Assembly: GCA_022794265.1 (NCBI GenBank)
Contig: JAAWEK010000011.1
Location: 124,001 to 188,000, forward strand
Length of the DNA: 64,000 nucleotides
Direction of reading: 5' to 3'
Source of the DNA: Lachnospiraceae bacterium
Lineage (GTDB): Bacteria > Bacillota > Clostridia > Lachnospirales > Lachnospiraceae
Positions 2-23,683 of the stretch are shown here, one piece after another (the stretch's first letter is position 1; each line of letters begins with the position of its first letter). The notes under the pieces were generated by a model. It made no database searches and had not been told where the DNA came from. It saw only the letters and a program-made list of their open reading frames with translations. The position numbers and the translations under genes are program-made.

Positions 2-448
2 TTAATGGTTCAGTTTCCGGAGGATTCGGATATTGTAAAAGAAGTTAATATTATCAATCAGGGGATTAGCAATAATTTAAAAATTGAAGATTTATTACAG
101 GATTTTGCAGAACGCAGTAAATTACCGGATGTTATCGATTTTGCCTCTGTATTTACCACCTGTTATAACAAAGGTGGAAATATAAATGAGGTTATAAAAA
201 ATTCGGTATCTATTATAAATGATAAAATAGATATACAAATGGAGATTGAGACTACAGTTACGGCACAGAAAAATGATCAATATGTAATGCTGGTTATGCC
301 AGTGGCATTTATTCTTGCAATAAAGACAATGGGAGGAGGATTAATTGATTTATCCTCTGCAATTGGAAAGATTTCAATGACCATAGCTGTTGTAATTTTT
401 ATTATTGCATATTTAATCGGTAAAAAAATATTGGATATAAAAATATAA
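2..448 (+). CDS. tadB: TadB-like type II secretion F-domain protein, 5' truncated
   Basis: The reading frame is open from the window edge, so only the C-terminal ~148 residues are present. It shows part of the cytoplasmic T2SF helical domain (acidic and hydrophobic helices with a YNKGGNINEVI segment that fits the GxxL/I heptad pattern of the family) and then two closely spaced C-terminal membrane segments ending in a short basic tail (GKKILDIKI). In Tad pilus systems TadB and TadC form the inner-membrane platform on which the TadA ATPase drives pilin assembly. The stop lies 15 bases before the next start, and that next gene is a second T2SF protein, which is the usual tadB-tadC order. The TadA ATPase would be expected upstream, outside the window. 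The ATG at 5 is unlikely to be the real start. Confidence 0.75.
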   Translation, partial: LMVQFPEDSDIVKEVNIINQGISNNLKIEDLLQDFAERSKLPDVIDFASVFTTCYNKGGNINEVIKNSVSIINDKIDIQMEIETTVTAQKNDQYVMLVMPVAFILAIKTMGGGLIDLSSAIGKISMTIAVVIFIIAYLIGKKILDIKI

Positions 449-463
449 TAAGGAGAAAAAATT

Positions 464-1336
464 ATGTATTCAAATTCGATTTACATATTTATAGCAATAT
501 ATTTTATCATGGCTGTAGTCTGGTGTATTGCTGCCATATCGGGGCATGAAAAGTATATGCCTCTTGTGGAGGCGCTACCAGAAAAGGGATATACATTAAG
601 AGAATTTTATACTATAGGTTTTGCTATTCTAGGATGGATAAAGTATAGATATGAATCTCCAATTGATAGAAAAAGAATAGCACAATGTAGAATTGCTTAT
701 GGGCAAAAATATGGTTTGTTTTATTACACCGTTAATCTTGCGGAAAAAGTAACTTATGGATATACAATAGCAATGATGGGATTTATTCTTTATCCTATAA
801 CCGGTGAAGTAGTTGCATTAATAGCATGTATTGTGGCAGCTATTATATCATATTGGTTTACTGATATGAAAATAACGGATATAATAACGGAACGCGAAGA
901 AGCGATTGCTAAAACATTTCCGGATATGCTATCAAAGATGGCGCTGTTAATCAATGCGGGAATGATAATGAAAGAAGCCTGGGAGACCATAGCTTATGAT
1001 GGAAACGGAATATTATTTGATGAGATGCAGGCAACAGTAGAAGAAATGAATAATGGCGTTCCGGAGTTGGAAGCATATATAAATTTTGGAAATCGATGCG
1101 GAGTTATAAACGTTAAAAAATTCACATCTCTGCTGGCGCAGAATCTGACAAAAGGTAATTCAGAGCTGGTTCATTTTTTAAGAGAAACTACAATCAGCAG
1201 CTGGGAAGAAAAAAAACATATAGTAAAGCGTTTGGGCGAAAAAGCATCCAGTAAATTAATGCTTCCAATTGGAATGATACTTGTAGGAATATTAATAATG
1301 ATTCTTGTACCTATTGTTAGTAAACTGGGTATTTGA
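464..1336 (+). CDS. tadC: TadC-like type II secretion F-domain membrane protein
   Basis: This 290-residue protein has an N-terminal membrane helix (about residues 5-25), a second hydrophobic stretch near 95-130, a cytoplasmic T2SF helical domain (about 140-255, including FPDMLSKMALLINAGM and an FTSLLAQNLTKG segment) and a C-terminal membrane segment (about 265-288). That layout is typical of TadC. It would pair with TadB in the platform of a Tad/Flp-type pilus machine. The start has a good AAGGAG ribosome binding site, and the gene follows tadB by 15 bases, so they are probably cotranscribed. The family call rests on topology and context rather than one diagnostic residue. Confidence 0.75.
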   Translation: MYSNSIYIFIAIYFIMAVVWCIAAISGHEKYMPLVEALPEKGYTLREFYTIGFAILGWIKYRYESPIDRKRIAQCRIAYGQKYGLFYYTVNLAEKVTYGYTIAMMGFILYPITGEVVALIACIVAAIISYWFTDMKITDIITEREEAIAKTFPDMLSKMALLINAGMIMKEAWETIAYDGNGILFDEMQATVEEMNNGVPELEAYINFGNRCGVINVKKFTSLLAQNLTKGNSELVHFLRETTISSWEEKKHIVKRLGEKASSKLMLPIGMILVGILIMILVPIVSKLGI

Positions 1337-1370: not shown

Positions 1371-1622
1371 ATGTTGGATCAAATGTATATCAAAGCAAAA
1401 TTTTCATTAAAGAGGGCATTAAACCATCTGTTTAATGAGGAAAAGGGAAGTTCAGAGGTAATTGCGCTTGTCGTCGTTATTGGTATTGTCTTAATAATAG
1501 CATTTTTGTTCAGAGATCAGATTATAAAATTGTTTGTAGATTTGTGGAATAATCTGGTAAGTAGTAATTCTGATGGTAATGCAGATAAGATAACTGAGCC
1601 TGCTATTAAAAAACCTAAATAA
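1371..1622 (+). CDS. Flp1-like pilin (small pilin subunit)
   Basis: This is an 83-residue protein with one hydrophobic helix (about residues 28-46) preceded by a charged leader that ends EEKGSSEVIAL. The G-S-S-E junction just before the helix looks like a class III/type IV prepilin processing site, as in the Flp1-like family of Firmicutes Tad clusters. The prepilin peptidase encoded at 8976-9644 would be the natural processing enzyme. A strong AAAGGAGG ribosome binding site precedes it, in keeping with an abundant pilin. It is followed by an 18-bp perfect stem-loop (1639-1679), which may stabilise or separate the pilin message. It is probably the major pilus subunit of this locus, which is inference from size and position. 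Confidence 0.7.
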   Translation: MLDQMYIKAKFSLKRALNHLFNEEKGSSEVIALVVVIGIVLIIAFLFRDQIIKLFVDLWNNLVSSNSDGNADKITEPAIKKPK

Positions 1623-1701: not shown

Positions 1702-2412
1702 ATGAAAAAAAAGATGAATATTCAAATAAAAAAGAATAAAGGAAATATAATTTTTGAAGCTGTCATCATAATGCCTATTGTATTTATAGTTATATTTGCA
1801 TTAATTTTGTTGGGGTTTCGGCTTCATGAGCAGACAACTTTGGATGGTGCTGCAAAAAGGGGAGTTATTTATGCCTCAAAGATAATTGCAGATCCTCAGT
1901 ATAGAACAGTTACATCTGCTTCGTCGAAGGGTAATAAAGATATTATTGATTTAACTTCGGAAAATGGCGATTTTACAAAAATGGATGACATTCAGCCATA
2001 TCGATATTTTTCTTGGAATATTGATGATGAAAAAATTGCGGTTGAAAATTATGTAAGTGATGTAATAAAAAAGTCAAATATTGGATGGGAAGATATTGAA
2101 AATGTTAAAATAACATATTCTCAAAAAAATTATGTAATATATCAGGAAGTAAGATTGAAAATAACGGCATCATATGAGTTACCGGCCATATTTGGAAATT
2201 TTGGTCTTCCAACACATTATGACATTGAATCACAGGCGGTGATGTCTGTCAATGATCCGGATGAGTTTATACGAAATGCCGATTTGGCAAGAGATATAGT
2301 TGATAATGTTTTGGTGGCGACTGGTGCGGATAAAAAAATAGATAGTGTAAAAGGTAAAGTAAGTTCTGTGTTTGGCAAAATTATAGAATATAAAAATAAA
2401 TTATTTAAATAG
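1702..2412 (+). CDS. TadE-like pseudopilin/minor pilin
   Basis: This 236-residue protein has a short basic N-terminus and a GNIIFEAVIIMPIVFIVIF segment (about residues 14-32), matching the TadE pattern of a Gly/Glu-containing junction followed by a long hydrophobic helix. The remaining ~200 residues would lie outside the membrane. Minor pseudopilins of the TadE family are needed for Tad pilus assembly and are processed by the dedicated prepilin peptidase. It lies between the pilin gene and the very large TadG-like gene, which matches the tadE-tadG order of Tad loci. A GGAG ribosome binding site precedes the ATG. Confidence 0.7.
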   Translation: MKKKMNIQIKKNKGNIIFEAVIIMPIVFIVIFALILLGFRLHEQTTLDGAAKRGVIYASKIIADPQYRTVTSASSKGNKDIIDLTSENGDFTKMDDIQPYRYFSWNIDDEKIAVENYVSDVIKKSNIGWEDIENVKITYSQKNYVIYQEVRLKITASYELPAIFGNFGLPTHYDIESQAVMSVNDPDEFIRNADLARDIVDNVLVATGADKKIDSVKGKVSSVFGKIIEYKNKLFK

Positions 2413-2428: not shown

Positions 2429-5400
2429 ATGAAGTTGATGGTGAAAAAAAGAATACAGGGTTCTATATCATTATTGTTGGTAGCAATATTATTGCCGACA
2501 ATGATGTTTAGTGCATTAATGGTAGATATATCCAGACTAAATCTGGCAAAATCAATGGTATCCAGTGCCGGTGATGTGGCACTGAATTCTGCACTTGCAA
2601 ATTATGATACAATATTAAAAGATGTATATGGGTTATTTTCTGTTTCACAGACAGAAGAAGACTGGAATGAAAATATCAGAAGATATTTTGAAGAAACAGT
2701 GGTTTCTTATGGAATAGTTTCAGAAGAGGATGCCAGTGACTATGTCAGTATGCTTTTAGGAAATGTGGCAGAGTATATATTGATAGATGGGGGGGAGCCA
2801 GTTGATTTTTTAAATATGTCTCTGGAAGATTTTCAAATTTCCGGGATGGAAGGAAGTACATTATGTAATCCGCAGATATTAAAAAAGCAAATTGTGGAAT
2901 ATATGAAATACAGGGGTCCAGTTGTCCTTGGATTGGGTTTTTTAGATTCTTTGAAAGCATTTGATAAAGTTGAGGATCAGTCAGAGGTCATCGAAGTACA
3001 GGTGAAAGCTCAGGAAAGTACACAAAAGGTTTCTGATGCCTGCAAAGATTTGTATGAGAAAATTGATGCATATCAAAAAAAATATGATGAAACCGTATTG
3101 CAGGGAGAAAACAATCTGGTATATGAATATGCAAAACGGGTAGAAAGTTATAAGGATACATGGAAGCCTGGAGAAAAACAGGTTACATATAAAGAAATTC
3201 ATACATTATTATTAGAATTTAATTTAACAGATTTTAATGAGGATGTAAAAAAAATTTCTATTGATACAGAGTTAAAAGATGGGGCCAATGGATTTAAAAA
3301 TATAAATGAGGCAATAGCAGCAATAAGGGCCAATTTAGAAAAAGCGGAGAAAAGTGAAGTAAATAATAAATTTAATAATAAAAAATATTTTGATTCCTCA
3401 CAGCTCAATGAAGATAAATCGGAATTTATTAATACAGGTACTGCAAGTAAGCAGTTTAGGGAATACAAAAAGTACCTGTTCAATTTAGATAAAGATGTTA
3501 ATAAGGGAATAGTAGAAGGTGAGGCAAAATCTTTTAATACATTAACAAAAGCAATTGGTGCATATAACTACTATGCAACTCAGCAAATTAATGAATATTC
3601 CGAAACTATCAGCAACAAAAATGAAGAGAAAGAAAATCTAAACAAACAATATAGTCAAAATGGTGATAGAATTGATGATATTATCAAAGAGTTAAGTGAT
3701 GTAAATAACAAAATAAATTCAAATGAGGTGACTTATATACAAAGTATATTATCTAATAATTTAGATATGAGCAACAACTATAATGAGTATAAAAATTTAA
3801 AAAAAAATATGTATAAAGGAATTAATGCAGATTCAAACAGAATTACAACTTTAGAGACAATTTTTTATAATTTTGATTCTAAATTTTCTGAATATATAAA
3901 AAATAATATTGATAACATAGTTAAAAAAGAGTTATTAGAGGAAGAAAAAGAAGAACTGATTGCGAAGAATTTTACAATATCACGGAACATGGGAAAATTT
4001 CAGATTGAGATAGATTTTGCAAAAAAAAATAAGGATGCACTGGAGAGAAAAAAAGAAGATTATACTAATAGATATAATAAAATAAAGGATAAATATAAAG
4101 CCTTAGAATCTTCTGTTAATTCACGCATTGATATTTATAAGGATTATAAAGCATGTGCCAAGAAACAGGCTGGAAACTGGGTGAAACTGATTTCTGAAGA
4201 CTTGAGTAAAGTGAAAAAACACCTGGAGGATTTAAAGTTATTGCTTGAGGCGGCAATTAAGCAGTGTGATACCGTAAAGGCTGAAATTGAAGCGTATGAA
4301 AGTAAGATTAAAGATTGGGAAAATGCTAATAATACATATAGTTCAAAGGATGGAGAAGATACTTTTAGTCAAAGCAATAAAACAGAAATCGAGTCTGTAA
4401 GAAAAGATTATAATAAAAATGATTTAGATAAATTGAAAAAGCTATTAGAAGAACAGAAAGGTATAATTCAGGAGTATCTCACATATATTAATAATAGTAC
4501 GTCTTATAAATATGGGGTAAAAAAAATAGCGGAAATTAAAGATTATGACAGATTAGTTCAGGCGGTAAAGCAAAATAGTAATATATATACTGAATTAAAA
4601 AATCAAAAAGTATTAAGTGATAATCAACTAGAAGCATATTTTAAAAAATTATATTCTAATTATGAACATATTGAAAAGCCAAATACAGATGCACATACCA
4701 TTTTGCCGGACAGTAGCTATCTAAAAGCGCCGTTGAGTATATTTGGATGTTTCTTAAAAGAAACATATGGAAATTCTAAAAAGGATGATTCTATTAAAGC
4801 TGATTATGAGAGTGCAAAAGATGAGTCGGAAGTGGCGGCTAATAAAGAAAATAAAAATACAGAAGATTCAGATGGCAGCACAGGAGGCGCAAAGGAAGAT
4901 AAATATGGTTATACATATAAGTCAATTTTAAAAGAATCTATTGAAAAATCAGATTTGCCATCCGGATTAAGTGATTCAAGTGTTAGCAGTGGCAGTGTAA
5001 ATACAGACAAGGTATCAGATTCATATTCCAGTCAGAAATCAGTAGTATCATCAATTCTTTCCGGAATATCGGGGGCATTAAAAGAGGGAAGAGACGACTT
5101 GTTTGTTTTGCAATATATTTTTGAAAATTTTTCTTATGCAGCCAAAGTACAGACTGATTTGGTGGATGAAGGGAAAAAGTCTTCTGAGTTATCGGAAGAT
5201 GAATTAAAAGCTTATATGTCTAAGACATTAAGCGGATTTCCAATTAATTCAAAAAACAATTTTATGTATGGTGCAGAAATAGAATATATGTTATATGGAA
5301 ATAAAACACCATCAAAAAATGTGGATTCTGCAAAAGCTACGATATTTGCCATTCGTTTTATTTGCAATAGTATTTATGCGTTTACCAATTCAGAAATTAA

Positions 5401-7640: not shown

Positions 7641-8954
7641 TTGCAAATGCAGAAAAGAGAAAGAGGTTCATTAACAATTGAATCAACTGTATCCTTAACA
7701 ATATTTATGATGGTTATAATTTCTATATTTTCTTTCATTAATTATTGCAGAGTACAGGCAATGATATCAAATGCAGTTGATACTACTGCAAAAGAAATGT
7801 CGCAATATGCATATTTTTATGAAATGTCTGGAATACAAAAATATGAAACAAATATTAGTGAGCAGGCAAAACCTTCTAAACAACATACAAATGATGTTTT
7901 GGAATCTTTTTATTCTATAACAGATATGATAAGTGGGAAAAAAGAACCTTCTGGTGATGCTTCCAGTTCAACTGTACCTGATTCTTTTTCAACATTAAAA
8001 AACTTTTCCGAAAATATTAATGGTAATCTTGAAAATATAGAAGCAGAATTTAATAAGATTTCTGCGGTTATAGATAAAGCGTTGGAAAATCCGGCAGAAT
8101 TTATGAAAAGTATTGCAGCATTGGCAGGAGAGACGGCCATCAATACGGTCAAGTCTCAGCTGATAGCTGCACCTCTGGCAAAGGCAATGGTAATAAAACA
8201 TTTTGGAGGCAGTAAAGAGCAGGCGGATAAAGAATTAAAATCTTTAGGTGTTGTTGACGGTCTTAATGGATTAAATTTTCGGATGTCTGCGCTTTTTGCA
8301 CCAAATGCTCCAGATGATATCAGGCTTGTTGTTTATTATAAAGTTGATTTGATATCTTTTATTGATTTGGGATTAAAGCCAGCTGTAATGTGTAAGGAAA
8401 CGAGAATACGTGCATGGCTTGGGGGAGATTCTTCTATAGAGCAGGAGAAGGGAACAGAAGAAAACAATAGCTGGAGTATATGGGAAATGGGAAGTATGGA
8501 ACGTGGAAAATACATAACTGCCCAGGAAGTTAGGAATTTAAAATCAAATCCTGATATGTATTATGCTTCAAGATTGGGATTTGACGCCTATAATAGCAAA
8601 ACAAATGAGTTTATCCAGTATTCTTCAAAAGATACATTTTCTACAAGTTATTATAACAATGCAAGTAAATTAAAATCTGCATTGAAATCTGATTATAATA
8701 AATTAAGAAATAGCGTCAGCAAGTTGGATAATAAGGTTACATTGGAAAATAAAGCAGGAGAAAAACAAGAAATAACTATTAATAAATCAAAGAGTAAATT
8801 AAAATTAGTAGTTATAGTTCCGGAGGATGCTGATATGAGTTATGTAAATCAAGTCATTGAATCTTTGAAAAAGGATGTAAATGATGATAGTTTTGTGGTG
8901 GAAGTAGTACAGGGATATGGTAAATCACCTAATAATCCGGCTGCTAATGGTTAA
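7641..8954 (+). CDS. Second TadE-like pseudopilin with large ectodomain
   Basis: This 437-residue protein begins with a basic leader and RGSLTIESTVSLTIFMMVII (about residues 7-26). That is a TadE-type processing junction with Glu followed by a long hydrophobic helix. The rest is a large polar, helical extracellular region, with a second globular part near residues 330-437. It is longer than the usual TadE (150-200 residues). It follows a 63-base gap containing a GGAGG-like ribosome binding site and is 21 bases upstream of the prepilin peptidase gene, its likely processing enzyme. It probably works as a second minor pseudopilin in the same machine. Confidence 0.65.
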   Translation: MQMQKRERGSLTIESTVSLTIFMMVIISIFSFINYCRVQAMISNAVDTTAKEMSQYAYFYEMSGIQKYETNISEQAKPSKQHTNDVLESFYSITDMISGKKEPSGDASSSTVPDSFSTLKNFSENINGNLENIEAEFNKISAVIDKALENPAEFMKSIAALAGETAINTVKSQLIAAPLAKAMVIKHFGGSKEQADKELKSLGVVDGLNGLNFRMSALFAPNAPDDIRLVVYYKVDLISFIDLGLKPAVMCKETRIRAWLGGDSSIEQEKGTEENNSWSIWEMGSMERGKYITAQEVRNLKSNPDMYYASRLGFDAYNSKTNEFIQYSSKDTFSTSYYNNASKLKSALKSDYNKLRNSVSKLDNKVTLENKAGEKQEITINKSKSKLKLVVIVPEDADMSYVNQVIESLKKDVNDDSFVVEVVQGYGKSPNNPAANG

Positions 8955-8975: not shown

Positions 8976-9644
8976 ATGAAAATAATCCAGTGGTTGATAG
9001 CAATTTTGTTTAGCATATTATGGTGCATTTTGGCTTTAATATATATGCATATAAGAGGAAAAGAAAAGAACTTTGAAGAGTTAAAGAAATTTAAAGAAAT
9101 ATTTAAACTAGAACATTTGATTTTTATATTGGCAGGAACAGCTTTGGGACTTTTTCTTTTTTGGAAAACGGGGGACAAAGGAAAAGATGTTGTTAGTTGC
9201 TATAAAAATATGTTGACTTTTTTTTGGCTTCTTCCAATTGGGTTCATTGATTATAAGGAGAAAATTATTCCAAATAAAATAATATTAGGTGGAATTGCAT
9301 ATTGGATAATATATTTTTTTGCAGAATGTTTTATCAATGATATATCCATTAAAAGTATAGCAAAATATTCCTTAGCAGGATTTGTTTTTGGGGCAGGAGT
9401 ATTATTAATCAGTGCATTGATTATCAGAGGAGGAGTAGGAATGGGGGATGTTAAATTGTTTGCTGTTATAGGAATGTTATATGGTTTTAATGGAGTTTTT
9501 ACAATCTTATTTATGACATTATTATTACTGTTTTTGGTTTGTATTTTTTTATTAGTATTAAAAAAAGTAGATAGAAAGTCAACATTTCCAATGGCACCCT
9601 TTGTAACAATTGGATTTGCAATTTCAGTAGTAATGGGAATTTGA
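8976..9644 (+). CDS. Prepilin peptidase (A24/TadV type)
   Basis: This 222-residue polytopic membrane protein carries the two aspartates of GxGD aspartic proteases: D92 in FIDYKEKIIPN and D158 in GVGMGDVKL. The N-terminal cysteine-rich methyltransferase domain of classic PilD-type enzymes is absent, as in the TadV/FppA branch. It should cleave the leader peptides of the Flp-like pilin and the two TadE-like pseudopilins in this operon at the cytoplasmic face of the membrane. The start follows the previous stop by 21 bases with an AAAGGA ribosome binding site. Confidence 0.85.
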   Translation: MKIIQWLIAILFSILWCILALIYMHIRGKEKNFEELKKFKEIFKLEHLIFILAGTALGLFLFWKTGDKGKDVVSCYKNMLTFFWLLPIGFIDYKEKIIPNKIILGGIAYWIIYFFAECFINDISIKSIAKYSLAGFVFGAGVLLISALIIRGGVGMGDVKLFAVIGMLYGFNGVFTILFMTLLLLFLVCIFLLVLKKVDRKSTFPMAPFVTIGFAISVVMGI

Positions 9645-11047: not shown

Positions 11048-12451
11048 ATGAAAGATTTGTTGACAGAAATTAACGGAGAAAATACATATCTAATATATGA
11101 AATCGCTGTAAATGAATCATTGGATACAGTTATTGTGGGCATGATGGAACATAATAAAATTACAGGTATACTCCCAATGACTACTGTTCAGTTAAACCAG
11201 ACTAAATATTTGAAGTATGATATTACATCCAAAGTTAAAATGTCAGAATTGTTTTCTGGAAATGTTAAAAAAGAAATGGTGGTTAAATGTTTTTTAAGCA
11301 TTATGAATACATTAATTAATGCAGAGGATTATATGCTTAATTTAGAGGACTTTCTGATTGATATGGATCATATTTATGTTACGTTAGGTAAATATGAGAC
11401 GGAATTAGTATGTTTGCCAATTACAGATGAGAAAAAAACAGATGCAGTTAAGTTGGAGTTATTTGTAAAAAATATTATTTTTTCAGCAAAATATGATCAG
11501 ACTGAAAATTGTGATTATGTGGCAAAGATTATCAGCTTTTTAAACAGTCAGCCTTTTGCAATTAATAAATTTAAAGAAGTTCTTGAGGAAATTTTAGATG
11601 ATAATAACGTTCAGTTATTTCATTCTGCAGATGTGAAAGTATCACAAAAAGACGAATTGACACCTATATCAGTTGCTGCACCAGAAAATCCTGTTTATAA
11701 TTCTATAAAACCGGCTTTTGATACAGTTGTAAATAATAATACCGTTGATGCATTTGAAATTTCAGATAAAAAAGCATTAGATTTAAGTAATTCTGTTAGT
11801 GAAAAAAAAGAAAAAAAAGGCTTTTTTGCTAGAAGAAAGGATAAGGTTAAGAAGAAAGAGAAGTCAGATAAGAAATGTAAAGAAACGGAAATGGTGCAGT
11901 TATCAGGTATGGCAAGTGAAATGATAATACCAGGACAGAAAGTGGTAAGCACAGAAGATGGAAAATCAATTGGTGTCAATGTGAATAATAGTGATAATGA
12001 GGTTACAGGGGTAGTTCAAAAAGCGAATCTGACAAAATTACCGAATACAACATTTAATCATGTAAAAGGAAGTTTTGGCGAAACCACTGTATTAGGTGTT
12101 GGAGGAGGCAGTGAAACCACCATATTAGGTGTTAACAGTTTGTCTTCAGCAGATAATAGGGCATATTTAATTAGAAGACGAAACAATGAGAAAAAATATA
12201 TAGATAAAGATGTTTACAGAATAGGGAAAGAAAACAGTTTTGTAGATTATTTTATTGGAGATAATACGGCTATAAGCAGAAGTCATGCTAATATTATAAA
12301 AAAAATAACAGATTATTATATTGTTGATATGAATTCAAAAAATCATACATATGTAAATGGAACGATGCTTCAGCCTAATATTGAAACATTGCTTCAGCCG
12401 GGAACAAAAATCAGATTGGCTGATGAGGAGTTTGAATTTAATTTGGAATAA
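11048..12451 (+). CDS. FHA-domain signalling protein with DUF6382 N-terminus
   Basis: This is a 467-residue cytoplasmic protein. Residues 1 to about 190 match the DUF6382 type that commonly precedes FHA domains in Firmicutes. A Lys-rich linker (about 252-278) follows, then two near-identical ETT motifs (ETTVLG at 345-350 and ETTILG at 356-361), and a C-terminal FHA domain (about 385-467). FHA hallmarks are YRIGKE, SRSHANI (R411-S412-H413) and NGT near 437. FHA domains bind phosphothreonine. The kinase and PP2C phosphatase genes follow immediately, so this is the likely reader of that pair. The ETT motifs resemble the phosphorylated ETT site of GarA/OdhI, whose phosphorylation makes the FHA domain fold back on itself. 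The same switch here is inference. Confidence 0.85.
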   Translation: MKDLLTEINGENTYLIYEIAVNESLDTVIVGMMEHNKITGILPMTTVQLNQTKYLKYDITSKVKMSELFSGNVKKEMVVKCFLSIMNTLINAEDYMLNLEDFLIDMDHIYVTLGKYETELVCLPITDEKKTDAVKLELFVKNIIFSAKYDQTENCDYVAKIISFLNSQPFAINKFKEVLEEILDDNNVQLFHSADVKVSQKDELTPISVAAPENPVYNSIKPAFDTVVNNNTVDAFEISDKKALDLSNSVSEKKEKKGFFARRKDKVKKKEKSDKKCKETEMVQLSGMASEMIIPGQKVVSTEDGKSIGVNVNNSDNEVTGVVQKANLTKLPNTTFNHVKGSFGETTVLGVGGGSETTILGVNSLSSADNRAYLIRRRNNEKKYIDKDVYRIGKENSFVDYFIGDNTAISRSHANIIKKITDYYIVDMNSKNHTYVNGTMLQPNIETLLQPGTKIRLADEEFEFNLE

Positions 12452-12480: not shown

Positions 12481-13248
12481 ATGAATTTTTTGGTGTCAGC
12501 AAGTACAGATAAGGGTATTAAAAAAAATACAAATCAAGACAGTCTAGCAATTAAGGTAGCAGAAACAACTATTGGTAAGATAACACTTGCTCTTGTTTGT
12601 GATGGAATGGGAGGGCTGCAGCAGGGTGAAGTAGCAAGTGCAAATCTTACATTAGCATTTTCAAACTGGTTTGATAATGATTTACCCCAATTATTACAAC
12701 ATGGAATAGAAGATTATAAAATATATCAGGAATGGAATCAGATTATTCAGACAGAAAATAAAAAGATATTATTGTATGGACGTCAACAGGGAATAAATTT
12801 GGGGACAACAATAGTGGCGGCGTTATTTACCAATAATCGATATTATATATTAAACATTGGGGATTCTAGAGTTTATGAGATTAAAGATAGTATAAGATTA
12901 TTAACACAAGATCAGACAGTGGTAGAAAATGAATTTAGAAAGGGGTTGTTGACAAGGGAACAGGCTGACAATGATTCACGCAGAAGTGTTTTATTGCAAT
13001 GTGTAGGAGCAATACAAAATGTAGTTCCGGAAATGCTATATGGCAATATACAGAAAGATGCAGTTTATATGTTATGTTCCGATGGATTCCGTCATGTTAT
13101 CAGCACACAGGAGTTGTATGAGCATCTTAATCCAAACGTTTTAATATCAAAAGAAGTAATGAAGCAGCAGAGTGAATTATTAATTGAACTTAATAAATCC
13201 CGTATGGAACAGGATAATATTACTGTCAGCTTAATTAGAACATTTTAG
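12481..13248 (+). CDS. PP2C-family Ser/Thr protein phosphatase
   Basis: This 255-residue protein is one compact PP2C domain. Metal-binding and catalytic motifs are present: NTNQDS near residue 20, CDGMGG (D41, G42), NIGDSRVYEI, LCSDGF and the final QDNITVSLI. It should dephosphorylate Ser/Thr-phosphorylated targets in the cytoplasm, opposing the kinase encoded 18 bases downstream. The FHA protein upstream is the obvious shared substrate or reader. Its length is typical of soluble Stp/PrpC-type phosphatases. It is probably the locus-specific phosphatase rather than the general cell-wall PrpC, because it is embedded in the Tad operon. Confidence 0.9.
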   Translation: MNFLVSASTDKGIKKNTNQDSLAIKVAETTIGKITLALVCDGMGGLQQGEVASANLTLAFSNWFDNDLPQLLQHGIEDYKIYQEWNQIIQTENKKILLYGRQQGINLGTTIVAALFTNNRYYILNIGDSRVYEIKDSIRLLTQDQTVVENEFRKGLLTREQADNDSRRSVLLQCVGAIQNVVPEMLYGNIQKDAVYMLCSDGFRHVISTQELYEHLNPNVLISKEVMKQQSELLIELNKSRMEQDNITVSLIRTF

Positions 13249-13265: not shown

Positions 13266-14984
13266 ATGTTGGAAATAGGCTCAATAGTAGATGGAAAGTA
13301 TAAGATACTGAATAAAATCGGACAGGGCGGAATGAGCATTGTTTATCTGGCCATGAATGAAAGAGCAAATAAACAGTGGGCAATAAAAGAAGTCCGCAAG
13401 GATGGTGTAAAAGATTTTGAAGTGGTAAAGCAGGGGTTAATAGTTGAAATTGATATGCTTAAACGATTGAGCCATCCTAATTTGCCAAGTATTATAGATG
13501 TTATTGATCAAAAAGATAATTTTTTAATTGTAATGGATTATATTCAGGGCAATTCGTTGAAGAATAAATTGGATGAATTTGGTGCACAGTCCCAGGAACT
13601 GGTAATTGAATGGGCAAAACAGCTAAGCGATGTTTTGGGATATCTTCATACCAGAAAGCCGGCAATTATATATAGGGATATGAAACCATCTAACATCATG
13701 CTTAAGCCGGATGGAAAACTGACGCTGATTGATTTTGGAACTGCCAGAGAATATAAAGAAAAAAATCTTGCAGATACGACCTGCCTTGGAACTATCGGAT
13801 ACGCAGCGCCTGAACAGTTCGGAGGAAAAGGGCAGACCGATGGAAGAACGGATATATATTGTCTGGGGGCTACTTTATACCATTTGGTCACAGGAATGAA
13901 TCCAAGCGAACCACCATATGAAATAAAACCTATTAGGGAAATCAATTCTTCCTTATCCAGTGGATTGGAAAAAATTATTTTAAAGTGTACCCAGCGAAAC
14001 CCGGAGGATAGGTATCAGAATTGTGCGGAGTTAACTTATGCGTTAGAACATTATGAAGAAATTGATGATATTTTCAGAAAACGTCAAAAGAAAAAACTGG
14101 CAATATTTATAATGACAGTTTTTTTTGCAATTGTATCACTAGGGGCAGGAATAGGCTTTGGAAAAGCAGCAGAGGCAAAGACTGATGAACAATATGAAGA
14201 TGTTATTGCTGAAGCCAACAGCCTGACAAATGAAGATAGCATTAGGGAAACATTAAAAAAGGCAATATCAATTAAACCAGGTGATAAAGAAGCATATATC
14301 AATCTGATAGAATCATATTATAATCCGCAGTATGGTGATGAGAATGATATTTATAATTTTTCAGTAGACGAAGCACAGGAAATAGAAGAAATATTAAATG
14401 ATTTTGGTTCTGATTTAAAAGAAAATAAGAGTAATTATGTAGAGGTCTCATATGAATTAGCAAAGGCCTATTTCTTTTATTATACATATGGAAATGAGGA
14501 TAAATCAGGGGATAATGAAAACGCTAAATATAAAGCGGCAAAAAAGTGGTATAGAAATGTAATTGATTATTCTGACGAAAATATATTTTTGTACTGGAAT
14601 GAATCAAAGATATATTATGAAATCAGTGAGTATTATACCAGTATTGGAGACTGGGAAAATACAGGTGACTTTAAAGGAAAATACATAGAGTATTTTAACA
14701 ACTATTTACAATTATTTACTTTGGCATCAGATAATAAGAAAATTAATAATGATAATATTAAGTTGAGAATGTATCAATTATTTTCCAGTGCGATTGCAGC
14801 AAAAACAGAAAAATTTATAAATGATGGAGTTCTAATTGAAGATATTCGGAATCTTCTACATCAAATGCAGACAGAGATAAATTCTATAGAAAATCCGGAT
14901 AGTAATCTTGAAAGCTTAATATCCAGTATAAACATAAACAACAAAAAAATAGAAATAAAGCTACAGGCAATGTCCGGATCATAA
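13266..14984 (+). CDS. Membrane Ser/Thr protein kinase
   Basis: This 572-residue protein has a complete Hanks-type kinase domain: glycine loop GQGGMS (19-24), Lys41 in AIKEV, catalytic loop YRDMKPSN (D138, N143), DFG (156-158) and an activation segment ending APEQF. One transmembrane helix follows (about 276-298), then a ~270-residue extracytoplasmic region that is helical and TPR-like rather than made of PASTA repeats. It is therefore distinct from PrkC/PknB kinases that sense muropeptides. The TxCLGTIGY activation loop suggests autophosphorylation. With the FHA and PP2C genes it completes a threonine-phosphorylation circuit coupled to the pilus genes. Confidence 0.9.
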   Translation: MLEIGSIVDGKYKILNKIGQGGMSIVYLAMNERANKQWAIKEVRKDGVKDFEVVKQGLIVEIDMLKRLSHPNLPSIIDVIDQKDNFLIVMDYIQGNSLKNKLDEFGAQSQELVIEWAKQLSDVLGYLHTRKPAIIYRDMKPSNIMLKPDGKLTLIDFGTAREYKEKNLADTTCLGTIGYAAPEQFGGKGQTDGRTDIYCLGATLYHLVTGMNPSEPPYEIKPIREINSSLSSGLEKIILKCTQRNPEDRYQNCAELTYALEHYEEIDDIFRKRQKKKLAIFIMTVFFAIVSLGAGIGFGKAAEAKTDEQYEDVIAEANSLTNEDSIRETLKKAISIKPGDKEAYINLIESYYNPQYGDENDIYNFSVDEAQEIEEILNDFGSDLKENKSNYVEVSYELAKAYFFYYTYGNEDKSGDNENAKYKAAKKWYRNVIDYSDENIFLYWNESKIYYEISEYYTSIGDWENTGDFKGKYIEYFNNYLQLFTLASDNKKINNDNIKLRMYQLFSSAIAAKTEKFINDGVLIEDIRNLLHQMQTEINSIENPDSNLESLISSININNKKIEIKLQAMSGS

Positions 14985-15000: not shown

Positions 15001-15480
15001 ATGGGAATAGCAGATAAATATGAATTAATATCCAAAATGGGGTACATACTATCAGTTTTTTTTCTGATAGTAACCATATTACTTTATTTTTTGTTTAATA
15101 TTAGAAAAATAATATGTGATTTGTCTGGTATAACAGAGAAACATGCAATTAGCAGGATTCGGGCAGCAAATGCTGCTCAAATAGATTCAGATATTGGAAT
15201 AACAGCTAAAGCCGGCTATGTTTCTATAACGGATAAGATTGCAGGAATCGGAGTGTCATGGGAAAAGAAGCAAGATTTAAATAATAACGAAACAATGTTA
15301 TTGGAAAATGCTTATGAAGAAACTACACTTTTACAACAGACGGGGATTACGGAAGAATTAGATGAAGTCAATGTTGGAAATAGGGATTGTTCGGTATCAT
15401 ATCATGAACCATTAAAAAATCAATTTTTGATATTAGAAAGTATTGTCATAGTTCATTCTGATGTCATAATTCATATATAA
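15001..15480 (+). CDS. Small membrane protein with ETT motif, unknown function
   Basis: This 159-residue protein has one transmembrane helix (about residues 15-36) and a hydrophilic cytoplasmic or external tail. I do not recognise the family. The tail carries ETMLLENAYEETTLLQQTG (about 97-115), two Thr motifs resembling the ETT(V/I)L motifs of the FHA protein in the same operon. It follows the kinase gene by 16 bases with a GAGGAGG ribosome binding site. A reasonable inference is that the kinase phosphorylates the tail, which then docks the FHA protein at the membrane. No experiment or homology seen here proves that. Confidence 0.5.
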   Translation: MGIADKYELISKMGYILSVFFLIVTILLYFLFNIRKIICDLSGITEKHAISRIRAANAAQIDSDIGITAKAGYVSITDKIAGIGVSWEKKQDLNNNETMLLENAYEETTLLQQTGITEELDEVNVGNRDCSVSYHEPLKNQFLILESIVIVHSDVIIHI

Positions 15481-17413: not shown

Positions 17414-17434
17414 CATTTGAAGGGAGAAAATATT

Positions 17435-20400
17435 TTGAATACAAAAGTCATATATAAGCGTTGGATGGCTGTATGTTTATCATTGGTTGTATTTATCACA
17501 ACAATGCAGTTTGATGGAACAATACAGGTGAATGGCGTTAATGGGGAAACTACGAATTTAGATATAACGGTAAAAAATGAAGATGGTACAGAGGCTGTTA
17601 ATGAGAATAATATATATTTTGTAAATTGCAAGAATCCTATAATAGAGGTAAGCAATGCTGAAAATATAAAAGAGATAAGATATAGTACAACAGATAATGA
17701 TTCAACAGGGGAAAAATTATCCCCTGTTGAAAATGACGGAAAAATAATACCGAATCTGGTTGCGGATACTTTATATTATATATGGATAATAGATAGTCAG
17801 GATAAAGCTTTTGGTTCTTTTAGAATTTTATATGATACACAGGCTCCTGAATTTAGTACCATAGATAATATTTCTATGGATAAAATAGGCAATGTCTACT
17901 GGACCAAGGAGAATAAAGTAGTTATAAAAGTTACGGATAAGGAAAATGGCTCAGGCGTAGTATTGAAATATAGCAATAAATTAGACTATCAGAATGCAAA
18001 TGAGACGATTCCCTATGATGAAAATGAAAAAGGATATGTATTAACAAATTTGATTGATGGTAACACCTATTATGTATGGTCATGTGATAAAATAGGAAAT
18101 TATATAAAAAATCCAATACAAATTAAATATGACTGTACTCCTCCTAAAGTAGAAATAACGGATATAAATGGTAATAAACTTATTGAGAAAGAAAAAGATG
18201 GAAAAACATATTGGACCAATCAAGATAAAGTAAAAATCCATATAAAGAATAGTGAAGAAGGAACCATCACTTTTCGGATGAGTTCAGAAGATAATTTTGA
18301 AGAGTCAAACATAACTATTCCAAATTTTTTAGCTAATGAAAATTGTTATGAATTTCTGTTAGGTAGTGAAAATAATTATATCTGGATTTCAGACGCTGCG
18401 GGAAATTTTACAAAGATTTTTGTCAAAAAAAAATTAAAAGTTAGTTATGTCGTTAGAAAGAATGATGAATATTTAGTTCCAAATGGAGGAGAGGGAACCC
18501 TGTATACAATTAATGCGGCTGACCTGACAATTGATGTTTCTGACGAAAAAATGAATGGAGTAGGTATTGAAAGCGTTGAGATATGTGAATTTGTAGAAAA
18601 TTCAGAAAATAATAGTTATATAAAAGTAATAGAGGAAGATTCAAAATATAGTATTAAATTAAATAAAGAAAAAATTATTCAGGTAAAAATTACTGATAAC
18701 CTGGGAAATATAAATATAATACAGTTGGAATATACAGATAATGATGCCAGTTTGGTTTTTTATGATGATGATGGTGTTTCAATATTTCCGGATGAAAAAA
18801 ATACATATTATTTTAAAAATTATTATTTTTTCAGTTTATTTAACTATTCAAAGAAGATTACATCTATTAATTATTCGATTTATGGAGATAACTCAAATGA
18901 ATTTACAGAACAAATTGATAAAGTTGATGATACTAAATTTTCACTTTTAAATATCGCAGAGGCTTTAAAACAAAATAAAAACAAGTTTTATGAATTATGT
19001 TTTAACATTCATACTCTCGGTCATGAAAAAGAAGAGAAAACTGAGACGTATAAAATAGTATATGATTCTGAAGCTCCTGAGTTTACTATTATAAACACAG
19101 TTGAAAATCAGTATGTTAATAGTGAAACAAAAGGATATATTCAGATAAAAGATATAATAGAGAAATCTGGAATTCCGACGTCAAAATATTTTATATCCGG
19201 AAATCAAAATGAGAATCCTGAAAAGTTTACTCTATCAAATAAAGGGGTATTAGAGATTTCAGAGATTATTAAAAAGCTTCAGGATGGAGACAATGAAATA
19301 AATTTTATTTTAACCGATAAAGCAGGTAATGAGAAACTTCAAAGTACTACCATAAAATATGATAATACGGCACCAACTTTTAAATCTGAATATGCTCACG
19401 ATGGTGAAATCGTAGGAAAAAATACGGATTATGCAATAGAAATTGAAGCCTATGATGCTACATCAAAAATAAATGACATCAGCTGCATCATAAATGAAGG
19501 CGATGCCAATAAGAGAGAAGAATATGTATATTCTTTGACGGATACCGTTGAAGATACAGTAAATCATACAATAAGGATTAAAGATATTTTAGGAAAATTA
19601 TCGGAGGGAACCAATACAGTAAAGATAATTGTAACGGATAAGGCAGGGAACCAAAGCAGTATAATAAAAGATACAAATCAAGAGGCTGTGTACACTATAG
19701 TTAAGGATACAACCGCACCGGAGTTTGCAACTGAATATGAGAAAAATGGTAAACCATTTGGTGAAAATACTGCAGAGCCAATTTATTTAACTGACATTTC
19801 TGATGCATCAGATATTGCTAGGATAACCTTTATTATAAATAAAGGGCGGCCGGAAGAAAAAAAGTTTGATTTTAAATATATAAAAAATAAAGAATATAGA
19901 TTTCTTCCAAGAGATTATAAAGATTATTTTTTAGAGGGAAATAATACTGTAACTATAGAGGTAGAAGATGAAGTTGGAAATATAGGGGCACAAACTTTTA
20001 AAAAGGTTATCAAAGATACAACAGCGCCGGATTTTGAGACAAGCTATTCAGGGGAAGGAAAACCAAATGGCAAGGATACAGTAGAAAAATTTGAGATAAA
20101 GAATATTACGGATAAATCGAAAGTAACAAAGATTACCTTGGTTATAAATAAAGATAAAAAATTTGAAACTTCATATAATGGTGGGAAAGATTATACGATA
20201 AATATTTATGAAATAATGAATATTTTATCAGAGGGGAAAAATACCGTACAGATTGAAGTAACGGATGAGGTTGACAATGTAGGAAAAAGTATTGTCTATG
20301 AAGTAAAAAAAGATACAGAAGCGCCAAAATTTAAATCTAATTTTGATAACAATGAAAAGGAATATATCACAAAAAAGACATCAGCAAAAATTTCGGTAAA

Positions 20401-23400
20401 AGGTATTTCAGATATATCGAAAGTAGAGACTATTACCTTTATTATTATAAAGAAGAGTGATCCAGATGGTGAAGATTATAGTGAAAAGAAATATCAATAT
20501 TCATATGAGGAGAACAAAGAGTATATTTTGGATCTTCAGAAAAATATAAAAGATTTAGCAGAAGGAAATAATACAATCCGGATAGAAGTAAGGGATGAGG
20601 CTGGCAATATAGGGAAAGAAGAGTATGTGGTGAAGAAGGATACAATCGCTCCGAAGTTTCCATTTTCATATGAATATAAAGGGTTTATTACGTATGGAAC
20701 AGAGGCTGAAGTGAGTATAGGGAAGATTTCGGATAATATTTCACAAGTAGAAACTATTTTTTATAATATTAATGGTCATAAAATCAAAAAAAATTACAGC
20801 TCCAATACAGATTATTCTATTTTACTTAAGGATTACATGAATAAACTGTCAGAGGGTGACAACAAAATAGAAGTTATAGTTAAAGATAAGGCGGGAAATG
20901 AAGCATCCCGGACATGTACGGTAAAAAAAGATAGCGAACCTCCTACTGCAAAGTTTGAGTACAAATATAATAATAAAGATATCAATTCTGATTATAATGC
21001 TCAAATTATTATAACAAATGTTGATGACCGATTATCGGGAATAAAAAATGTTACATATAGTGTGGGTACACATAATGATACCTTAACACCTGAAAACGAT
21101 ATCTATACATTAAATATTAATGATTTGCTTCTGAATCGGGAATCAATATTGGAACAGGGAAAAAATGAAATTACAATTACAATATCGGATATAGCCGGCA
21201 ATCTTCTTGAGAAAAAATTTAATGTTTGTATTGATACGGTTCCACCTGAAATTGCAGAGACAAAATTTGACGAGAAAATCAAAGTAGAACATGACGGAAG
21301 CAACTATTATGTTAAAGAGACAACAACTCTTTCCGTACATGCCATTGATGACAAAAAACTTAAGACAGTGGTTTTAATCATGGGCGATACAGAGGAAACC
21401 TGTGATGTATCAGGAAAAGCAGCAACGGCAGAATTTAAGATTCCTTCCGGGTTTAAAGGTAAACTATCTGTTTATGCCATAGACCATGTTGGAAACAGGT
21501 CAGAACGGAAAGATATTGGCGGTACATTTATAGAAACTGCAGAAATGCATGATACCTATTCCGGTATTACTTTTAGTAAGGCGGAAACCAGTCTGCGGGA
21601 TGCAGCCGGAAATGAACTTTATCGGGAAGACCAGATACCGGTAACAATAGATGTAACGGATAATTTTTCAGGGATTAAACGAATAGAATGGAAAGTTTCA
21701 TCGGCAGATACAGAGGCAGCGGCAAATGAAAGCGGTTATATTATTATCAATGGAACAGAATTATCGGGAAATCTGGAACAGGTTAATATTCCGAATAACG
21801 ATAAAAAAGATAATATCAATGAACACATAATTACACATCTTTCTAAAAAGCTCTTTATAAGAGATAACACCAATAATATTACTTTAACTGTAATAATGAC
21901 AGACAATGCAGGAAATACTTCTCAAAAAGAGATTGTTTTCAGCAATGATACAACGCCTCCGGTTGTAACGGTTACTTATGACAATAATTCACCGGATGTT
22001 GAAAACGGACAGATGTTTAATCGGGAAAGAACAGCAACCATAGAAGTAGTAGAACGAAATTTTGACCCAGGTCATGTGGTAATAGATATTACAAATACAG
22101 ACAATATTGTTCCCGATATTACCGGATGGACTTTGAAGCCTGGAACCGGAAATCAGGATGACACGGTTTATACAACAACCATAACCTATAGCGCCGATGG
22201 TGATTATGTATTTGATATATCCTTCCAGGATATGACAGGCAATCCTGCGCAGATTAATTTTGGAAATTCCATTGCTCCACAGGCATTTACGGTGGATAAG
22301 ACCAAACCGGTTTTAAATGTTTCCTATGACAATAATGATGGAAACGGCAGTTATTATAAAGACAGCAGAACAGCCATCATTACCATAGATGAGCATAATT
22401 TCAGTGAAGACAGACTGAATCTGACTGTTATGAAGAATGGCAGCAATGAGACACCGCAAAGTACCGGCTGGAACAATAATGGGGATACCCATTCTTTGAC
22501 ACTGGTATTTGCAGAAGAAGCAGAATATTCTATCATAGTATCTTATACAGATATGACCGGTAATATGGCAGATAACACAGTGAATAACGCTTTCTATGTG
22601 GATAAATCAGAACCACAGGTAATGATTAGCGGAATAGAAAATCAGAGAGCATATAAATCAGAGCAAGTCGGATTTGAAATTTCCGGTACTGACATATATT
22701 TTGATGCCATGAATGTTTCTCTGGTGAGAATTGATAATTTTGGTAATCGTTCAACAGTTGAATTAAATAAAACATCAATTGAACATGGAGAGAAAGTTTT
22801 TATTGACAATCTGACGCTGGACGGTATCTATCAGCTAAATTATACAGTCACAGATAAATCTGCAAGGAATGTGGGAGAGACTATTGTATTCTCTGTAAAT
22901 AGAAATGGTTCCACATATATGCTTTCTGAGCAGGTAATGAAGCTGAATAAATCTTATGTAAAGTCTGTCGATAATGACATTGTAATAAAAGAAGTAAATG
23001 TAAATGAGCTATTAATGGATTCTTTAGTATTAACACTTTCCCGGGGCAGCAGCTCCATAGAATTAAAGGAAGGCACTGATTTTACCATTCAAAAGAATAC
23101 AGGTTCCGGACAGTGGTGTGAATATACTTATACTATTAAAAAATCCTGTTTTGCAGAGGATGGTGTATACAGTCTGTCCATATCATCAAAGGACAGTTCC
23201 GGTAATATATCAGTCAGTGATTTGGAAGCGAAGGCGGCAGAACTGACTTTTGCAGTGGATAAAACGGAGCCGATTTGTAATGTGATGAACTTAAAATCCG
23301 GCATAACCTATGCAATGAACAGCAAACAGGTAGAATTCACAGTCAGTGATAATATCATGCTGTCAAAGGTATCGGTTCTGTTAAACGGAACAGAATTATT

Positions 23401-23683
23401 AAGTCTCACAGAGGAAACATTAAGAGAAATAGCAGATAGCGGAGAAAATATTTCCTTTGATATACCAAATTCTGACACTGCCCAGAATGTAGTGATTCAA
23501 TATATGGACAAGGCAGGTAATGAAGGAATTACGGAAATAAAGGATTTTTATGTGACCACAAATCTGTGGATTCGTTATACTACCAATACACCGTTGATGG
23601 TATCCTCTATTGCAGGTGCAGCAACAGTTCTGGGACTGGCAGTCTTTGTTCTGATGTTCAGAAAAAAAGCAGGACGGCATTGA
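17435..23683 (+). CDS. Giant Ig-like repeat surface protein with C-terminal membrane anchor
   Basis: This protein has about 2082 residues. I place the start at the TTG at 17435 because a GAAGGGAG ribosome binding site sits nine bases upstream; the TTG at 17417 lacks one. An N-terminal signal segment is followed by many tandem beta-sandwich domains of about 90-110 residues. Boundaries are marked by KDTTAPEF-type linkers and ends such as VTDKAGN, as in bacterial Ig-like/HYR-type repeats. The C-terminus has a transmembrane helix (IAGAATVLGLAVFVLMF) and a basic tail. It is probably a long fibre projecting from the membrane. With the LRR protein it forms the surface output of the Tad locus. It could be an adhesin or a load-bearing stalk; no enzymatic motif is visible. 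Confidence 0.75.
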   Translation: MNTKVIYKRWMAVCLSLVVFITTMQFDGTIQVNGVNGETTNLDITVKNEDGTEAVNENNIYFVNCKNPIIEVSNAENIKEIRYSTTDNDSTGEKLSPVENDGKIIPNLVADTLYYIWIIDSQDKAFGSFRILYDTQAPEFSTIDNISMDKIGNVYWTKENKVVIKVTDKENGSGVVLKYSNKLDYQNANETIPYDENEKGYVLTNLIDGNTYYVWSCDKIGNYIKNPIQIKYDCTPPKVEITDINGNKLIEKEKDGKTYWTNQDKVKIHIKNSEEGTITFRMSSEDNFEESNITIPNFLANENCYEFLLGSENNYIWISDAAGNFTKIFVKKKLKVSYVVRKNDEYLVPNGGEGTLYTINAADLTIDVSDEKMNGVGIESVEICEFVENSENNSYIKVIEEDSKYSIKLNKEKIIQVKITDNLGNINIIQLEYTDNDASLVFYDDDGVSIFPDEKNTYYFKNYYFFSLFNYSKKITSINYSIYGDNSNEFTEQIDKVDDTKFSLLNIAEALKQNKNKFYELCFNIHTLGHEKEEKTETYKIVYDSEAPEFTIINTVENQYVNSETKGYIQIKDIIEKSGIPTSKYFISGNQNENPEKFTLSNKGVLEISEIIKKLQDGDNEINFILTDKAGNEKLQSTTIKYDNTAPTFKSEYAHDGEIVGKNTDYAIEIEAYDATSKINDISCIINEGDANKREEYVYSLTDTVEDTVNHTIRIKDILGKLSEGTNTVKIIVTDKAGNQSSIIKDTNQEAVYTIVKDTTAPEFATEYEKNGKPFGENTAEPIYLTDISDASDIARITFIINKGRPEEKKFDFKYIKNKEYRFLPRDYKDYFLEGNNTVTIEVEDEVGNIGAQTFKKVIKDTTAPDFETSYSGEGKPNGKDTVEKFEIKNITDKSKVTKITLVINKDKKFETSYNGGKDYTINIYEIMNILSEGKNTVQIEVTDEVDNVGKSIVYEVKKDTEAPKFKSNFDNNEKEYITKKTSAKISVKGISDISKVETITFIIIKKSDPDGEDYSEKKYQYSYEENKEYILDLQKNIKDLAEGNNTIRIEVRDEAGNIGKEEYVVKKDTIAPKFPFSYEYKGFITYGTEAEVSIGKISDNISQVETIFYNINGHKIKKNYSSNTDYSILLKDYMNKLSEGDNKIEVIVKDKAGNEASRTCTVKKDSEPPTAKFEYKYNNKDINSDYNAQIIITNVDDRLSGIKNVTYSVGTHNDTLTPENDIYTLNINDLLLNRESILEQGKNEITITISDIAGNLLEKKFNVCIDTVPPEIAETKFDEKIKVEHDGSNYYVKETTTLSVHAIDDKKLKTVVLIMGDTEETCDVSGKAATAEFKIPSGFKGKLSVYAIDHVGNRSERKDIGGTFIETAEMHDTYSGITFSKAETSLRDAAGNELYREDQIPVTIDVTDNFSGIKRIEWKVSSADTEAAANESGYIIINGTELSGNLEQVNIPNNDKKDNINEHIITHLSKKLFIRDNTNNITLTVIMTDNAGNTSQKEIVFSNDTTPPVVTVTYDNNSPDVENGQMFNRERTATIEVVERNFDPGHVVIDITNTDNIVPDITGWTLKPGTGNQDDTVYTTTITYSADGDYVFDISFQDMTGNPAQINFGNSIAPQAFTVDKTKPVLNVSYDNNDGNGSYYKDSRTAIITIDEHNFSEDRLNLTVMKNGSNETPQSTGWNNNGDTHSLTLVFAEEAEYSIIVSYTDMTGNMADNTVNNAFYVDKSEPQVMISGIENQRAYKSEQVGFEISGTDIYFDAMNVSLVRIDNFGNRSTVELNKTSIEHGEKVFIDNLTLDGIYQLNYTVTDKSARNVGETIVFSVNRNGSTYMLSEQVMKLNKSYVKSVDNDIVIKEVNVNELLMDSLVLTLSRGSSSIELKEGTDFTIQKNTGSGQWCEYTYTIKKSCFAEDGVYSLSISSKDSSGNISVSDLEAKAAELTFAVDKTEPICNVMNLKSGITYAMNSKQVEFTVSDNIMLSKVSVLLNGTELLSLTEETLREIADSGENISFDIPNSDTAQNVVIQYMDKAGNEGITEIKDFYVTTNLWIRYTTNTPLMVSSIAGAATVLGLAVFVLMFRKKAGRH

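Follow-up and report, generated by a model that had tools for sequence, protein, structure and literature searches.

Control of type VI secretion by PpkA and Fha places a kinase and an FHA protein at a surface machine (PMC3953482). FHA proteins are also known from Tad-like systems, as in the Kil system of Myxococcus, a Tad-like machine for which the authors suggested contact-triggered signalling (PMC8460266), and as CpaF with an FHA domain (PMC12019362). The closest described relative of the locus considered here is T7SSe, a subtype of type VII secretion system (T7SS) of Garrett et al. 2024, alongside T7SSd. Its parts include a DUF6382-FHA protein (TseJ), a phosphatase (TseF), a kinase with one transmembrane helix (TseD), small one-helix proteins (TseH/TseK) and a giant protein with Ig-like domains and a C-terminal transmembrane helix (TseI), together with EssC, WXG100 and a ubiquitin-like protein (PMC11217815). 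We analyzed a stretch of 64,000 nucleotides from a Lachnospiraceae bacterium (contig JAAWEK010000011.1; G000:C9:124001-188000; hereafter the window) in which a Tad pilus locus is followed by genes for a DUF6382-FHA adaptor, a PP2C phosphatase, a kinase, a 159-residue tail protein and a giant Ig-like protein. We consider it reasonably probable that this locus represents a distinct Tad subtype under the control of a mobile receptor-kinase cassette that T7SSe also has. The reading draws on gene content and order, conservation of linkage, T7SSe-type homology, motif enrichment and intact kinase residues; the phosphorylation and binding steps, the TadZ/TadA target and the activating effect are in every case what we infer.

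Homologues of TseJ, TseF, TseD (with its helical outer part), TseK/TseH and TseI stand together in the window, the names being given by homology to EssC-linked loci and from the published descriptions (PMC11217815), not from that paper's own sequences. The 159-residue protein falls into one profile family with the small one-helix protein of EssC-linked loci, and both this tail protein and the C terminus of the giant show sequence kinship between Tad- and EssC-linked loci. A representative EssC-linked locus, L076, encodes an EssC of 1550 residues, FHA, PP2C and kinase proteins, proteins of 127 and 164 residues, and an Ig-like protein of 1915 residues. Among the best 80 of 574 confirmed relatives in named genomes, the cassette also stands beside EssC in Ornithinibacillus halotolerans. 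What differs from T7SSe is that the cassette of the window is joined to Tad genes, with no EssC ATPase or WXG100 found. The source genome (91% complete) gave 0 matches to a WXG100 model that may miss diverged members; EssC was not found there either, the lone full FtsK/SpoIIIE-type match scoring 90 bits vs 2183 bits for control genome G160. Classification of the locus as a plain T7SSe was rejected for this reason. Judged from its sequence, the cassette is not the pilus's own but a variant of a known T7SSe-type cassette, on a machine where we found no earlier description of it. Among the titles and abstract openings listed by searches of the open-access literature, none reports kinase, PP2C and FHA genes together in a Tad locus, and one listed paper has DUF6382 (PMC11217815); PMC13011404 and PMC12786226 yielded nothing further on the point. 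The T7SSe paper (PMC11217815) describes T7SSg and T7SSh with neighbouring Tad genes, and T7SSf with a TadZ-like protein; its seven passages on Tad do not mention the cassette in Tad loci. In type VI secretion both machine and adaptor differ, and in Kil, unlike the window, the FHA domain is fused to the ATPase and the word kinase is absent from the available text (PMC8460266).

The pilus genes of the window belong to a separate lineage. In the TadA tree, seven cassette-bearing sequences and one kinase-less sequence (L180) lie apart from 35 canonical ones with support 100, and the TadC tree divides likewise (13 and one apart from 36, support 100). Window-type TadA (E<=1e-165, 68% identity or more) occurs in 29 of 397 family genomes, and 15 of these carry the cassette kinase in the locus, although the link in G051, G379 and G099 is to other Tad genes, with TadA on another contig or 28 kb off. 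A kinase profile run on the other 14 genomes detected, in 10 of them, a diverged kinase no more than 18 kb from TadA and on its strand: upstream in G438, G307, G067 and G304, downstream in G028, G363, G114, G298, G331 and G029. From kinase density about 0.05 would be expected per genome, giving P(>=10 of 14)=4e-11. A kinase in the locus or within 18 kb therefore accompanies window-type TadA in 25/29 cases vs 0/40 for canonical loci (p=6e-15), a comparison whose detection steps differ between the two sides. In G363 (C5:68059-76019), kinase matches were observed in three successive reading frames of one strand, 11-20 kb from the window-type TadA.

Marker genes were co-oriented in all 27 unique Tad-linked loci, with median gaps of 27, 14, 11 and 18 bp; three duplicates (L215, L270 and L291) are left out of these gaps and retained in counts of 30. 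The gene order is not fixed. In G009 it runs PP2C, kinase, tail protein, giant (2473 residues), tadZ, tadA, tadB, tadC, flp, peptidase, WG, TadE and DUF5702, with a 4-bp overlap between giant and tadZ genes and the FHA gene at the far end. A search starting from FHA added L070 and L072 as further Tad-linked cases. Fourteen of the best 80 named-genome relatives are Tad-linked, three of them repeating loci of the first set; they include Thomasclavelia cocleata DSM 1551, Clostridium lacusfryxellense DSM 14205, Candidatus Soleaferrea massiliensis and a Lachnoanaerobaculum sp., and with the first two the kinase-Tad linkage extends beyond the family. At the level of gene linkage, as read from these neighbourhoods, the coupling between Tad and cassette is real. 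The earlier note on this DNA had based coupling on co-orientation and short gaps, which the neighbourhood search now carries further. Of its proposal that the pilus has its own kinase, phosphatase and FHA circuit, the coupling stands and the ownership does not, because the set matches the T7SSe accessory genes.

The adaptor itself has a wider distribution. DUF6382 was found in 145 of 150 family genomes. We fetched the neighbourhood of the best match in 40 genera (G001-G041 minus G023, which had no match), and Tad genes stood beside DUF6382-FHA in all 40; on the 4-kb contig L191 these are peptidase and TadE only. Neither kinase nor PP2C was seen in any of the 40 stretches, several of which end soon after the FHA gene. 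The canonical set of 40 comprises 39 of these loci, L180 being excluded as belonging to the window subtype, and a second Tad locus of the source genome itself, on the same contig about 104 kb away (C9:6274-17527), which has its own DUF6382-FHA gene and no kinase seen. Canonical loci, ordered TadZ-A-B-C-DUF5702-TadE-peptidase-DUF6382-FHA, share the core and adaptor family with the window locus; their TadA and TadC form a separate clade. Because the FHA adaptor is Tad-linked in 40/40 genera with no kinase seen, it counts as a standard component of Tad loci in the family, and kinase and phosphatase are the addition. A rhomboid protease gene lies 3' of the FHA gene in the second locus (L007 6274-17530) and in several relatives. 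The DUF6382-FHA protein probably works with the TadZ receiver domain, because a TadZ-like gene adjoins the FHA gene in 13 of 94 FHA loci without DUF5702, six of these being one housekeeping-linked pair in the window's genus. In that pair, at L071 7943-10613 and alike in L067, L073, L074, L075 and L082, an orphan TadZ-like receiver and DUF6382-FHA gene follow infB-rbfA-DHH-truB-ribF; domains were checked in L071, with which the other five agree in gene sizes and order. L071 was rejected as an unknown machine once this infB-rbfA-truB-ribF housekeeping run was recognized. The orphan pair suggests a pilus-free role.

Searching 397 family genomes with the window kinase gave 98 matches in 94 genomes (E<=1e-55), of which 85 were examined and the 13 lowest-scoring left out. 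Fifteen are Tad-linked (the window, L068, L069, L094, L096, L100, L106, L110, L112, L121, L127, L139, L140, L163 and G009). Eight have EssC in the fetched stretch, and in nine others EssC lies 6-16 kb downstream on the same strand; in the remaining 53 neither Tad nor EssC was seen, EssC beyond the stretch being sought in part of them. The earlier note had staked its proposal on the FHA, PP2C and kinase genes not occurring mostly elsewhere; taken literally they do, with 15/85 examined kinase loci Tad-linked, and the cassette as a Tad-specific element was rejected. In a FastTree kinase tree the Tad-linked kinases (26 rows) are scattered, requiring 18 changes, 16 of them forced by well-supported branches, a count inflated by the labelling of the G009 kinase and some contig-end loci as 'none'. 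Shuffled labels required a mean of 24.3 changes, with 0/500 as low, and the distribution is thus more clustered than chance; with 18 changes it is far from one clade, and a single origin is unsupported. Since one TadA clade is set against scattered kinases, the Tad lineage appears to have retained a kinase while changing its identity. Several cassettes without Tad (L222, L228, L261, L280, L283 and L284) have an additional kinase-like open reading frame (ORF) after the giant gene.

Candidate phosphothreonine sites recur in two proteins of the cassette. The FHA protein of the window shows no transmembrane helix and carries ETTVL (345-349) and ETTIL (356-360) ahead of its FHA domain; the linker consensus is FGETTVL-x5-GETTVL in both Tad- and EssC-linked copies, with an aromatic residue at -3 in 16 of 18 linker rows judged by eye. 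Counting T-x-[VILM]-L over the 70 residues that precede the FHA domain gave 50 motifs in 27 kinase-linked Tad proteins vs 2.1 in shuffled sequences (0/500 shuffles as high), 23 in 13 EssC-linked proteins (shuffled 1.4) and 88 in 60 unlinked ones (4.3). The tail of the one-helix protein is similarly enriched, with 59 motifs in 23 Tad-linked proteins (3.5 shuffled; 0/500 as high), 58 in 14 EssC-linked (3.3) and 274 in 90 unlinked (16.6). All 127 tails together have 391 motifs, of which 169 have E at -1 and 249 have V at +2. The DUF6382 part and the FHA domain show no excess. We had to reject the motif as exclusive to kinase-linked loci, since canonical Tad FHA proteins carry a related one; only its doubling follows the kinase. 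Two or more copies occur in 22/27 kinase-linked, 10/13 EssC-linked, 39/60 unlinked and 3/33 canonical proteins (kinase-linked vs canonical, p=9e-9). On the EssC side, ETELL/ETEVL-type repeats form long runs in some tail proteins (about nine copies at L125 14691-15305; also L111 14712-15218).

The T-x-[VIL]-L motifs are plausible phosphothreonine ligands. In FHA domains that read their own tail, hydrophobic residues occupy -3, +2 and +3 (PMC6733907), a role for pT+3 being stated elsewhere as well (PMC5549992), and GarA/OdhI and DgcB likewise have a Thr motif of this kind ahead of the FHA domain (PMC6733907). Unlike them, the window protein has a DUF6382 part and two motif copies, and the sequence match is weak, DgcB and GarA being the best PDB sequence hits of the FHA domain at E 1e-4 to 5e-4. 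The window FHA domain has both SxxH and the N-G loop, and SxxH is kept in 25/30 kinase-linked and 29/35 canonical domains. The arginine usual in FHA domains lies in a G-R pair; its position is Lys here, and GK occurs in 22 of the 30 kinase-linked copies. A possible kinship of DUF6382 with the EssB/YukC pseudokinase was also considered; DUF6382 had no PDB sequence match at E up to 10.

The window kinase has one transmembrane helix (278-296), and its C-terminal half presumably lies outside the cell. K41, E61, YRDxKPxN and DFG are invariant across 11 aligned rows, the loop being YRD, not HRD, and the protein thus has the predicted catalytic residues of an active Ser/Thr kinase. No PASTA domains were found with Pfam; the PASTA-kinase (PrkC/Stk1) model covers only positions 1-270 of 563 at 204.8 bits vs a cut-off of 450, and the Stp1-type model matches the PP2C at 161 bits, under its cut-off of 230. 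There are six kinase matches in the whole source genome. The giant has a hydrophobic N terminus and a C-terminal transmembrane helix (2060-2078). Its C-terminal third resembles EssC-linked giants. With one of these, L225, similarity over residues 1301-1800 totals 487 bits, and its last 308 residues match 9/11 EssC-linked (one of the 11 ORFs taken as EssC-linked giants being really EssC), 13/22 other Tad-linked and 41/78 unlinked ORFs. Its first 450 residues match none of the other giants in a set of 112.

These features suggest a mechanism in which the giant Ig-like protein would act as a surface receptor for contact or a ligand, with a lineage-specific N-terminal region and a C-terminal part conserved near the membrane helix. 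Its state would be passed to the outer half of the one-helix kinase, which would phosphorylate the T-x-[VIL]-L threonines of the 159-residue protein's tail and of the DUF6382-FHA linker. Binding of these phosphothreonines by the FHA domain would dock the soluble adaptor at the membrane tail; alternatively, the domain might fold back onto its own linker, as in GarA and DgcB. The tail protein could serve as the dock because Tad-linked FHA proteins mostly lack a transmembrane helix (27 of 30, duplicates included; three have one) whereas canonical ones mostly have one (24/35). The DUF6382 end would then act on the TadZ/TadA side and license pilus assembly at the contact site, and PP2C would reset the circuit. 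A surface signal may in this way switch the pilus through protein phosphorylation. More tentatively, and in our estimate falling a little short of probable, a common pThr-x-[VIL]-L code lets one cassette plug into either of two unrelated machines, Tad pilus or T7SSe, with the giant a contact receptor instead of a T7SS conduit and the Tad lineage keeping a kinase while swapping which one.

A number of observations weigh against control of a Tad subtype by the cassette. Matches to the diverged kinases exceed 85 bits in eight of the ten genomes and are weak in G331 (77) and G029 (64); of the ten, the neighbourhood was read in G028 alone (L070), where FHA and PP2C are present. No kinase lies near TadA in G007, G282, G405 or G012, the last near a contig end (4/29). 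Among eight relatives from the window's genus, G151 (L072) alone has a Tad-linked cassette in the stretches fetched, and G153 has neither window-type kinase nor window-type TadA. L070 has no tail protein, such ORFs in L069, L139 and L140 are missed by the profile, and no giant was seen in L069 or L070, nor in the stretch fetched for L100. The kinase-less canonical FHA proteins have 22 motifs in 33 vs 1.7 shuffled, and mild excesses occur in kinases (19 vs 10.9), TadA (8 vs 4.0) and PP2C (11 vs 6.4); clean motifs are wanting in L163 and L070. FHA proteins with a transmembrane helix make up 6/14 of the EssC-linked and 36/62 of the unlinked copies, and solubility is thus not cassette-wide.

A further such point, that 70/85 examined kinase loci have no Tad genes alongside, implies that the cassette can work with other partners, and the 18 changes in the kinase tree imply that partners are often swapped. 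Both would be expected if cassette and pilus were operon-mates only, the cassette sensing the surface and controlling its own giant or other targets such as the wall or adhesin display, co-transcribed with the pilus because both sets of surface genes are needed together. We regard this as unlikely, yet the most serious competitor: in one Tad clade 25/29 loci have a nearby kinase despite several kinase lineages, and the presence of the adaptor family in canonical Tad loci (40/40) connects the cassette's reader end with the pilus.

It is considerably less probable that the FHA protein is a phospho-independent Tad scaffold whose resemblance to kinase motifs is incidental, by analogy with the EssC FHA domains of T7SSb, which act with EssB and are described as having no phosphothreonine site (PMC11217815). 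DUF6382-FHA without kinase in canonical loci fits a scaffold, whereas the retained SxxH and a doubled motif that goes with the kinase do not. Very improbable, finally, is that the cassette represents a T7SSe accessory set, left behind or relocated, serving a type VII machine elsewhere. The cassette members do have T7SSe counterparts, and an EssC profile that detected 5/5 T7SS controls found EssC in 21 of the 36 genomes whose cassette was not observed next to Tad vs 4 of 24 without a window-type kinase (p=0.008 and 0.0015 for the comparisons of genome groups; window-type TadA was later found elsewhere in G012 and G067 of the 36 and in G007 and G029 of the 24). EssC was nevertheless not found in 14 of 17 Tad-linked genomes, being present elsewhere in G088, G099 and G315, and neither it nor WXG100 was found in the source genome; moreover, ORFs and catalytic residues are intact and the linkage is kept across families.

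If control of the Tad subtype by the shared cassette is correct, a Gram-positive gut-bacterial pilus has a dedicated phosphothreonine circuit, undescribed in the open-access literature as found, and the T7SSe kinase/FHA kit is a general-purpose controller of envelope machines. The giant Ig-like protein would be read anew, with explicit threonines and peptides named, and a possible answer would be at hand to how pilus assembly is timed to contact.

Features of the Tad-cassette locus, in window positions unless marked C9 (contig coordinates); E values are for domain matches.
Feature	Position	Strand	Evidence or remark
TadZ	C9:121333-122400, outside window		directly upstream of Tad run; 9.5e-37
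TadA	C9:122412-123650, outside window		between TadZ and TadB; T2SSE 2.4e-61
TadB platform protein, 3' part	5..448 (gene start C9:123660)	+	T2SSF weak, 0.046
TadC platform protein	464..1336	+	T2SSF E=7.8e-8
Flp1-like pilin	1371..1622	+	E=2.8e-7, under curated cut-off
TadE-like pseudopilin	1702..2412	+	E=2.5e-6
DUF5702 protein, 1441 residues, N-terminal transmembrane helix	2429..6754	+	1.1e-26
Probable lipoprotein, 267 residues	6774..7577	+	signal and Cys judged by eye
Second TadE-like protein	7641..8954	+	weak, 0.039; ORFs of relatives match
A24 prepilin peptidase	8976..9644	+	E=1.7e-12
WG-repeat protein, N-terminal transmembrane helix	9685..10986	+	9.9e-23
DUF6382-FHA adaptor, TseJ-like	11048..12451	+	DUF6382 2e-20, FHA 2.6e-13
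PP2C/PPM phosphatase, TseF-like	12481..13248	+	5.4e-9
Ser/Thr kinase, TseD-like	13266..14984	+	protein kinase 7.5e-49
159-residue protein, TseK/TseH-like	15001..15480	+	N-terminal transmembrane helix; tail with ETMLL and ETTLL
BspA leucine-rich repeat and fn3 protein, 636 residues	15503..17413	+	
Giant Ig-like (Big_13) protein, TseI-like, 2088 residues, TTG start	17417..23683	+	

The earlier description of a co-oriented run of Tad, FHA/PP2C/kinase, BspA-type and Ig-like genes agrees with the ORFs and domain searches, which place the whole run on the + strand. Its two giant surface proteins reduce to one, the BspA-type protein having 636 residues and being no constant member of the cassette. 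The window start cuts the TadB gene, whose identity follows from the weak domain match plus kinship with relatives' TadB; the run begins 5' of the window with TadZ and TadA, with 9-11 bp between genes, so that the predicted Tad (type IVc) core of TadZ, TadA, TadB, TadC, Flp pilin, TadE and peptidase lies in one run. Between tadB and the peptidase the gaps are 15 to 79 bp; from there to the giant they are, in order, 40, 61, 29, 17, 16, 22 and 3 bp. A promoter and terminator scan was uninformative, with 121 and 6 sites vs 109 and 6.6 in shuffles; on the + strand of 5000-24900 there is one terminator-like site, within the giant gene, such sites being no commoner than in shuffles. The DUF5702 protein is also present in Tad-linked loci of relatives, and a WG-labelled ORF occurs in 30/30. 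Downstream of the locus, at window positions 24830-28258, lies a gene for an alpha-amylase/pullulanase-type protein of 1142 residues with Listeria-Bacteroides repeats and fn3.

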